From: Tardiphaga sp. 709
GTDB taxonomy: Bacteria; Pseudomonadota; Alphaproteobacteria; Rhizobiales; Xanthobacteraceae
Direction: 5' to 3'
DNA length: 64,000 nt
NCBI RefSeq assembly: GCF_032401055.1
Contig: NZ_CP135529.1
Location: forward strand, 1,674,001-1,738,000
Shown: in pieces, positions 34,270 through 61,931 of the stretch
Layout: each line of letters starts with the position of its first letter
Numbering within the stretch: the stretch's first letter is position 1
The notes under the pieces: generated by a model
Told to the model about the DNA's origin: nothing
The model's database searches: none
Seen by the model: the letters and a program-made list of their open reading frames with translations, nothing else
Translations under genes and position numbers: made by a program

Positions 34270-34394
34270 CCGTGGAATCTCGTAATTGGGGTGACTGAAA
34301 AAACGATCTATCCAGATTGCAGCAGAGGGCGAAAGAAGCAAGCCGCAGTTTTTGGCGGTCCAACACCGTCATTCCAGGGCCCTTGTCCTTGCTC

Positions 34395-34534
34395 GTCATT
34401 CCGGGGCGCAAAGGGCCGCGAAGCGGGCCGGCGCGAACCCGGAATCCCGGAGTGTTTGGCTCTACGGAGACTCCGACGTTGAGATTCCGGGTTCAGTCCC
34501 GTCGCCTTCGGCGCCGGTCCCGCCCCGAAATGAC
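34395..34534. repeat. Palindromic intergenic repeat (GTCATTCCGGGGC family), copy 1
   Basis: Outer arms GTCATTCCGGGGCG (34395) and CGCCCCGAAATGAC (34521-34534); inner arms GAACCCGGAAT and ATTCCGGGTTC. The same family occurs at 61726-61864. Each copy lies just upstream of one copy of the 500-bp promoter-bearing element. Confidence 0.8.
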
Positions 34535-34554
34535 AGTGGGGCGAGGAAACGTCA

Positions 34555-35061
34555 TTAAATATTTTTTCCTACTATCGATTGACAACATCCCTATCAGGTT
34601 TATATTCCCCTCTGTCCGGCCCCGATGAGAGGGGCGAGCGCGATCGTCACGTTCGCGGGGCTGGATGCGGTGGACGCCGGAGATGCGGCGTTACGCGGTT
34701 CATGGGTGACGTCTGTCTTCGGGCAGGACGGATCTGCGCCAGCACTGCCACTGGCAAGGAGACGGCCGACCTTGAGATCGAAAGACCCCTGGACAGTGTG
34801 ACGAACGACCACAGTCAAAACGTGTCCGGCCTATTCGCTTGAGGCTCCCTTCCCATCGCCTTGGGACTTTAATTCGGTGATCGGATCGTTCGCTGAGGCA
34901 AAGTGCAAGCAACCGAAAAAACACCGCAGGCGGAACGCTGGGTAATCGCTCGTGCTTCCGAAAGTCCTGATGCATTACCCCTTGCGGACGACCGCATCGG
35001 CATCAGGCCCAAGGGTGCATCGGGCACCCGGCGTTCCGCACGCCCTCTTTTCGGAGAGGGT
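34555..35061 (+). repeat. About 500-bp dispersed element, copy A (candidate structured RNA)
   Basis: High similarity over its whole length, in inverted orientation, to 61204-61714. A block of about 120 bp (34641-34763) is almost identical. The 3' end holds three hairpins: CCTGATGC (34966) pairing with GCATCAGG (35000) around an inner TGCGG-acga-CCGCA; GGGTGC-atcgg-GCACCC (35013-35029); and CCCTCT-tttcgg-AGAGGG (35043-35060). The stems are kept in copy B while loops differ. A 58-codon ORF from an ATG at 34626 exists here, but copy B lacks that ATG. This argues for an RNA or a mobile non-coding element rather than a protein gene. Confidence 0.75.
34579..34606 (+). promoter_or_regulatory. Sigma70-like promoter of element copy A
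   Basis: TTGACA (34579-34584), 16-bp spacer, TATATT (34601-34606). Both hexamers and the spacer length are the same in copy B (61662-61689), although spacer bases differ. Confidence 0.6.
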
Positions 35062-35167
35062 CGAAGGAATGCTCATAGCTCGGACGCGCAAGCGCCGCGA
35101 GATCGCGAACGCTTGTGTTCAGAGCAGTGGCTGTTTGATATTTGAATCCTGCAATGATGCGCTGCCG

Positions 35168-52727: not shown

Positions 52728-52851
52728 TACATGCTCAGTTCACGCCCTCACGGGCTTACGAGCTTTGTTGGATCGCGCCGACAGCATTGCCGTCGGTTCG
52801 CTCCCGTCCGGTGCACCCCGCCCCGACGACGCCTCCAAAGCACAGTTCGTG

Positions 52852-53012
52852 ATGGCAGGTCTCCTGGCTTGCGAGTCAAAGCCTGTTGCCGCCTTCCCAA
52901 GAATTCTGAAGAATTCCCAGTGGCACCGGCGCGGGCTCGTCGCTTACAGTTGCGGGGGCAGCGCCGGCCTCAAACCGGCTTCCCTATTCACCTTCCACGC
53001 GGAAGGACCATC
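52852..53012 (-). promoter_or_regulatory. Cobalamin riboswitch of the left-going cob operon
   Basis: On the minus strand the boxes read GGAAGGTGAATAGGGAA, CTGCCCCCGCAACTGTAAG, GTGCCACTGG, GGGAAGGCGG and AAGCCAGGAGACCTGCC. It ends about 124 bp before the DUF1636 ATG. It would lower DUF1636-cobP-cobW-cobN-cobO-cobQ expression when adenosylcobalamin is plentiful. cobT on the other strand starts 115 bp away and is not under it. Confidence 0.95.
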
Positions 53013-53126
53013 GCAAAAGACGCTATCTGCCGGGTGCGCCGGGGTCAACCGCGCCGACGGACTGTCGCCCGGACCTGTTGACCTTGCAGGTCGTCTTGCG
53101 TCAGTTAGGCCGCGAAAAGGAACCTC

Positions 53127-61203: not shown

Positions 61204-61714
61204 ACCCTCTGTTGAGAGGGCGTGCGGAACGCCGGGTGCCCGTTGCACCCTTGGGCCTGATGCCAAATGCGGTCTTCCGCAATTGTGAGTGCATCAGGAC
61301 TTTCGGAGGCGCCGAGCAAAGTGCCCGACGTTCCGCATACGGTGTTTTTTCAGCCTGCTTGCACTTTGCCTTGGCGAACGGTCCGATCACCAAAATGATG
61401 GTCCCACGGCGGAGGGACAGGGAGCCTCAAGCGAGTAAGCCGGACGCGTTTTGACTTGGTCGTCCGTCACACTGTCCAGAGGGTCTTTCCATCCCAAGGC
61501 CGGTCGTCTCCTTGCCAGTGGCAGTGCTGGCGCAGATCCGTCCTGCCCGAAGACAGACGTCACCCATGAACCGCGTAACGCCGCATCTCCGGCGTCCACC
61601 GCATCCTGCCCCGCGAACGTGACGATCGCGATCGCCCCTCTCGGTGGGCAGGACAGAGGAGAATATAAACCTTGAAGGGATGTTGTCAATGAAGGATAGG
61701 AAAAAATGTTTGGG
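61204..61714 (-). repeat. About 500-bp dispersed element, copy B (inverted relative to copy A)
   Basis: Minus-strand copy of 34555-35061. The three terminal hairpins are all present: CCCTCT-gttg-AGAGGG (61205-61220), GGGTGC-ccgtt-GCACCC (61234-61250), and CCTGATGC (61256) with GCATCAGG (61291) around TGCGG-tctt-CCGCA. In copy A the loops are different in sequence and, for the first, in length. The block 61505-61630 is nearly identical to copy A. The ATG used by the 58-codon ORF of copy A is absent here. Confidence 0.75.
61662..61689 (-). promoter_or_regulatory. Sigma70-like promoter of element copy B
   Basis: On the minus strand TTGACA (61689-61684), 16-bp spacer, TATATT (61667-61662). Same hexamers and spacing as copy A; the spacer has changed at a few bases, which suggests that the promoter itself is kept. 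Confidence 0.6.
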
Positions 61715-61725
61715 GGCCCCGAACT

Positions 61726-61864
61726 GTCATTCCGGGGCGCGGGCGCGCCTTCGCGCACGCGAACCCGGAATCCCAGCATGGGAGTCTCTAGTCAGCGCCA
61801 AACACTCTGGGATTCCGGGTTCGCACTTCAGCGGCTTCGCCGCTTTCGTGCGCCCCGGAATGAC
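61726..61864. repeat. Palindromic intergenic repeat (GTCATTCCGGGGC family), copy 2
   Basis: Outer arms GTCATTCCGGGGCGC (61726) and GCGCCCCGGAATGAC (ending 61864); inner arms GCGAACCCGGAATCCCA and TGGGATTCCGGGTTCGC. It lies about 36 bp upstream of the copy B promoter, in the same relative position as copy 1 to copy A. Confidence 0.82.
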
Positions 61865-61931
61865 GAACCCAGGCGGACGCCCCGAAATGACAATGGAGAG
61901 GTCAGCGCTCCAGATACAGGGGATCTCCCCT

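Follow-up and report, generated by a model that had tools for sequence, protein, structure and literature searches.

What is the 500-base element that occurs at two places, in opposite orientations, in a stretch of the Tardiphaga sp. 709 chromosome, and does it encode a protein, an RNA or a mobile element? The stretch analyzed here (hereafter the window) comprises 64,000 nucleotides, positions 1,674,001 to 1,738,000 of contig NZ_CP135529.1 (assembly GCF_032401055.1). A first-pass annotation, made from the sequence alone, described two copies that share a TTGACA-16-TATATT promoter, a nearly identical block of about 120 bp and three 3' hairpins, without a clear protein product, and proposed either a transcribed non-coding RNA family or a non-autonomous mobile element. 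We find that this observation holds, although it is understated, since the element belongs to a large, structured, apparently non-coding RNA gene family which is dispersed through the genomes of Tardiphaga, Bradyrhizobium and their relatives. The proposed interpretation is supported in part: the evidence for a structured non-coding RNA family is strong, whereas mobility is neither shown nor excluded.

Copy A (34555-35061, + strand) and copy B, comprising the element body with its promoter (61215-61711, - strand), align over 499 columns at 87.6% identity. A BLAST search of the whole genome with copy A returned 28 full-length or nearly full-length copies rather than two, located on both strands of the 6.26-Mb chromosome and, apart from copy A itself, 86-92% identical to it. 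A search with a 31-mer from the core, allowing up to 3 mismatches, recovered the same 28 copies. In the alignment of these copies, a conserved block begins just upstream of the promoter (AAACATTTTTTCCTA) and is followed by the sigma-70-type promoter (34579-34606, + strand, in copy A), which takes the form TTGAC[AG]-16-TAT[AT][AT][TC] in 27 of 28 copies. Downstream of it lie the core of about 120 nt, which is invariant or nearly so in the 28 copies, a more variable middle, a conserved 3' domain and a tail that ends with GGCTGTTTGACAnTTGAATC. Thus, the element does not end at 35061, as first annotated, but extends about 90 bp further to a conserved, boxA-like tail at 35129-35148 (+ strand; GGCTGTTTGATATTTGAATC), with the corresponding tail of copy B at 61132-61112 (- strand; GGCTGTTTGACAAATTGAATC). 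The whole unit is therefore about 590 bp long (roughly 34560-35148 in copy A).

The copies are dispersed and intergenic. According to a simple codon-usage gene caller, the adjacent downstream gene runs towards the element in 21 of 28 cases, which speaks against a leader for a downstream gene. A palindrome of the published Br-REP type (Hahn et al., 2016; PMC5082802) lies just upstream of about 21 of 28 copies, and the motif GGAATGAY occurs within 75 bp upstream in 21 of 28. Next to copy A this Br-REP1/Br-REP2-like repeat occupies 34361-34535 (CGTCATTCC...CCCCGAAATGACAG), and next to copy B it lies at about 61720-61890. Such palindromes, which resemble the published consensus CCGGAATCTCGAGATTCCGG or CGAGATTCCGGGTTC...GCCCCGGAATGA, were found upstream of the element and not inside it, and are thus neighbors rather than parts of it.

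A small protein gene can be rejected. The start codon of the 58-codon open reading frame of copy A, which the first-pass annotation had already considered unlikely to be the common function because copy B lacks the start, is present in only 4 of 28 copies, and frame-breaking indels give the distance from the core to the 3' domain values in all three frames. The 58-residue product has no relatives in the viral contigs searched, and a plasmid-borne element was likewise rejected, with no match in the plasmid collection searched. A match to a known Rfam family had been named beforehand as grounds for abandoning the idea of a new family, but none was found at gathering score in Rfam 15. Covariance-model searches of the window returned only two cobalamin riboswitches elsewhere (RF00174; 38072-38275, + strand, 129.1 bits, and 52837-53027, - strand, 126.1 bits), a low-threshold scan gave only matches far below gathering scores, and 7 loci holding type-1 copies (the family of copies A and B) or copies of a second type (see below) gave none. 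A known riboswitch or other known non-coding RNA is therefore rejected as well.

Several lines of evidence show that the element specifies a structured RNA, with compensatory base changes supporting at least three helices. The predicted RNA body of copy A spans 34614-35071 (+ strand), with the start inferred about 7-8 nt after the -10 box. The segment 34614-35061 folds to -214.2 kcal/mol (z -4.54; 0 of 100 shuffles as low), and a related copy from a metagenome bin folds with z -2.04. The 5' hairpin P1 of copy A (34615-34665, + strand) pairs 34615-34623 with 34657-34665. Over 38 sequences, P1 and its inner helix are 99.3% paired with 4 pairs changed on both sides, none of 500 shuffles reached the covariation score, and slid versions fall to 41-61% paired. 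The 3' domain (34923-35071, + strand) comprises a long helix (GCGGAACG.../...CGTTCCGC) enclosing two hairpins, then a CGCCCTC hairpin. Among 40 representatives of this domain from several genera, compensatory changes were observed at 5 pairs, including C-G to U-A in 10 sequences and C-G to G-C in 8 within the long helix, and G-C to A-U in 14 and U-A to C-G in 11 within an enclosed hairpin. A second hairpin, P5, occurs with 24 distinct pairs of arms in 41 sequences, for example CCTGATGC/GCATCAGG, CTCGTGTGC/GCACACGAG and CCGCCTGC/GCAGGCGG, although these were found by a best-stem search and two or three entries may represent a different stem.

The two ends of the RNA may also be joined. The P1 loop of copy A carries GAGAGGGGCG, a candidate partner of the 3' CGCCCTC. 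GAGGG in the P1 loop is conserved in 38 of 41 representatives and the complementary CCCTC after the 3' domain in 41 of 41, the latter count not being independent because CCCTC was part of the selection pattern. By contrast, a perfect local partner GAGGG follows CCCTC within 20 nt in only 26 of 41. This suggests, but does not prove, a long-range pairing, and since the two partners are nearly invariant, covariation cannot be used to judge it.

An exact-pattern scan of named genomes found it in Tardiphaga, Bradyrhizobium, Afipia, Rhodopseudomonas and Nitrobacter. A covariance model of the 3' domain only, termed R1, found it in 51 of 120 genomes and 18 of 41 genera sampled in the family, many genomes thus having no match, and in 238 of 243 species genomes of a sister genus, probably Bradyrhizobium. 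Of 199 genomes sampled across the order, only one outside the family matched, and its sequence shows both domains. With fuller scoring, 91, 41 and 20 copies were counted in three 9.1-Mb genomes and 68 in Bradyrhizobium sp. BTAi1.

Many copies sit between the same genes in other Tardiphaga species, yet copies at orthologous loci are no more alike than paralogues. Mean identity of orthologues was 0.815, 0.900 and 0.890 in three compared genomes (G002, G001 and G005, respectively), and the best same-genome paralogue was higher in 23 of 25 pairs; one locus, L012/L099, entered this comparison twice, which inflates one paralogue value, and G002 holds more than one subfamily. This is concerted evolution, as in rRNA genes. 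Loss or replacement also occurs. The locus of copy L024 of the present genome is empty in two sister species, G002 and G010, and holds a different RNA type in G001. The empty sites (G010:C7:85200-85950 and G002:C12:721700-722450) contain another short inverted repeat (GTAGGGTGGGTTAGC...CGTAACCCAC), as if whole intergenic spacers were exchanged. At about position 206360 of the present genome a scar remains, in which a REP is followed directly by the boxA tail with the RNA body missing, whereas G002 has a full element there.

At loci that hold type 1 in this genome, sister species can hold a second structured RNA type with the same promoter box and the same boxA tail but a different body, including a long helix GGUGGCGCGCC.../...GGCGCGCCGCC. 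It was seen in relatives (L274 and L276-L278), and the present genome has about 11 such type-2 or type-2-like loci (L288-L298). Most of these have a promoter and five a boxA, and those read through share the GAGGGGCG loop and a long 3' helix followed by a CCCTC motif.

The tail resembles the boxA of the rRNA leader. The 16S rRNA leader of this genome reads GGCTGTTTGACAAGTTAAAT, and the element tails read GGCTGTTTGACAGTTGAATC or close to it. The 12-mer GGCTGTTTGACA, which equals the boxA core of the leader, is present exactly in 16 of 28 copies and a boxA-like, relaxed form in 25. All 10 exact matches of the 17-mer CTGTTTGACAGTTGAAT in the genome lie in element tails or in the one scar. In E. 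coli, boxA recruits NusB/NusE, and the complex promotes rRNA folding and regulates suhB (PMC5725501). The tail is not universal, however, as it is missing in 3 of the 28 copies and in many copies of other genera, including Bradyrhizobium and Rhodopseudomonas, that keep the body.

Taken together, we consider it more likely than not, with moderate confidence, that the element is a gene for a long (about 450-550 nt), stable, structured non-coding RNA which works in trans and is kept in dozens of dispersed, interchangeable copies with rRNA-like transcription units. In this view, each copy would be transcribed from its own strong sigma-70-type promoter and fold into P1, a variable middle and a 3' domain closed by a long helix, with GAGGGGCG in the P1 loop able to pair with CGCCCTC after the 3' domain. 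In Tardiphaga and several related genera the unit ends in a boxA like that of the rRNA leader, and NusB/S10/SuhB would therefore be expected to bind the transcript as on rRNA, while gene conversion would keep the copies alike within a genome. The copy number, the structure as judged by covariation, the lack of coding capacity, the concerted evolution and the resemblance of the tail to the boxA of the rRNA leader rest directly on the sequence analysis. By contrast, transcription of the element, binding of Nus factors and any antitermination, action of the RNA in trans, gene conversion as the homogenizing process, and a role of the many copies in dosage are inferences, and the mode of spread and the cellular function remain undemonstrated. 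Some observations fit this reading poorly. The boxA lies at the 3' end, where it cannot protect the upstream RNA from Rho, and the wide variation in copy number, the many genomes of the family without a match and the at least one locus that is empty in two sister species are odd for an essential RNA.

The main rival, which we regard as unlikely but not excluded, is a non-autonomous mobile element whose RNA or DNA structure is needed for its spreading in trans by an enzyme encoded elsewhere, with the promoter and boxA aiding its own transcription. The dozens of dispersed intergenic copies, numbering 0 to 91 per genome, the empty or replaced locus of L024 and the scar at 206360 are in line with this possibility. 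However, the copies contain no transposase, and their conserved ends (AAACATTTTTTCC and GTTTGACAGTTGAATC) are, by inspection, not inverted repeats of one another. Moreover, many loci are shared between species, nearly every genome of a sister genus keeps the element, and spacers seem to be exchanged as blocks. No target duplication was seen at the one pair of filled and empty sites compared, but there the whole spacer differs, so that this pair weighs neither way. A transcript would not carry its own promoter, which argues against simple retroposition.

A cis-acting element between convergent genes, such as a transcription barrier, terminator or RNA-stability module for neighboring mRNAs resembling REP elements, is improbable: the convergent downstream neighbors and the frequently adjacent Br-REPs would fit, but a terminator needs neither a strong promoter of its own in nearly every copy, nor about 450 nt of conserved structure, nor concerted evolution. 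Least likely is a boxA decoy that titrates NusB/S10/SuhB and so tunes rRNA transcription or antitermination, much as 6S RNA titrates RNA polymerase, since the boxA core shared with the 16S leader, the boxA-like tail in 25 of 28 copies and the confinement of the exact 17-mer matches to tails and scar favor it, but the many related copies in other genera that lack boxA while keeping the body mean that it cannot be the general function.

Among described systems, the large structured bacterial RNAs OLE, GOLLD, ROOL and HEARO, whose functions are unknown or partly known, are likewise several hundred nucleotides long, with complex conserved secondary structure and no coding role. The present family differs in matching no Rfam 15 family, in its 20 to 91 chromosomal copies per genome with no associated protein, and in the homogenization of copies within each genome. 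Br-REP1 and Br-REP2 are dispersed intergenic repeats of the same bacterial group, but they are short palindromes, whereas this element has a promoter, a multi-domain RNA fold and a boxA (PMC5082802). The Bradyrhizobium sRNAs BjsR1-BjsR10 are intergenic RNAs of the same group, some in 2 to 4 imperfect copies, and thus of much lower copy number (PMC5082802). None of their published TSS coordinates fell on the R1 hits listed in the three 9.1-Mb single-contig genomes, but these lists are incomplete and it is not established which of the genomes is that of USDA 110, so that identity with the BjsR sRNAs is not supported but not fully excluded. Identity with BjrC1505, reportedly described in 2012 and named in only one paper found, cannot be ruled out either. 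rRNA-type transcription units with boxA share a strong promoter, the boxA core of the 16S leader of this genome and concerted evolution, but here the boxA is at the 3' end, no rRNA is present and the product is unknown.

A literature search of open papers, which left out most subscription papers, found no description of the family. If transcribed, it would be one of the most numerous non-coding RNA gene families in a bacterial genome, in a group that includes the soybean symbionts and Rhodopseudomonas. It would open to direct test what dozens of interchangeable RNA genes do, why they carry an rRNA-type boxA, and how dispersed copies stay alike. Such stretches are often annotated as spurious hypothetical proteins. 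A wider reading, which is possible but held only tentatively, is that of a previously unrecognized superfamily of large stable RNAs, with at least two structural types sharing one promoter-and-boxA cassette, encoded by tens of concertedly evolving genes per genome throughout Bradyrhizobium and its relatives. In this reading it would rival tRNA genes in gene number, be made by rRNA-like transcription units and have an undiscovered cellular role.

The orientation of the copies relative to replication was also considered as a possible sign of strong transcription. Copies were co-oriented with replication in 61 of 87 listed cases in one genome, G366 (p = 0.0002), and a weak bias was seen in another, G460 (22 of 31, from a partial list). 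The bias was absent in BTAi1, again from a partial list, and in the present genome, and it was therefore not used as evidence.
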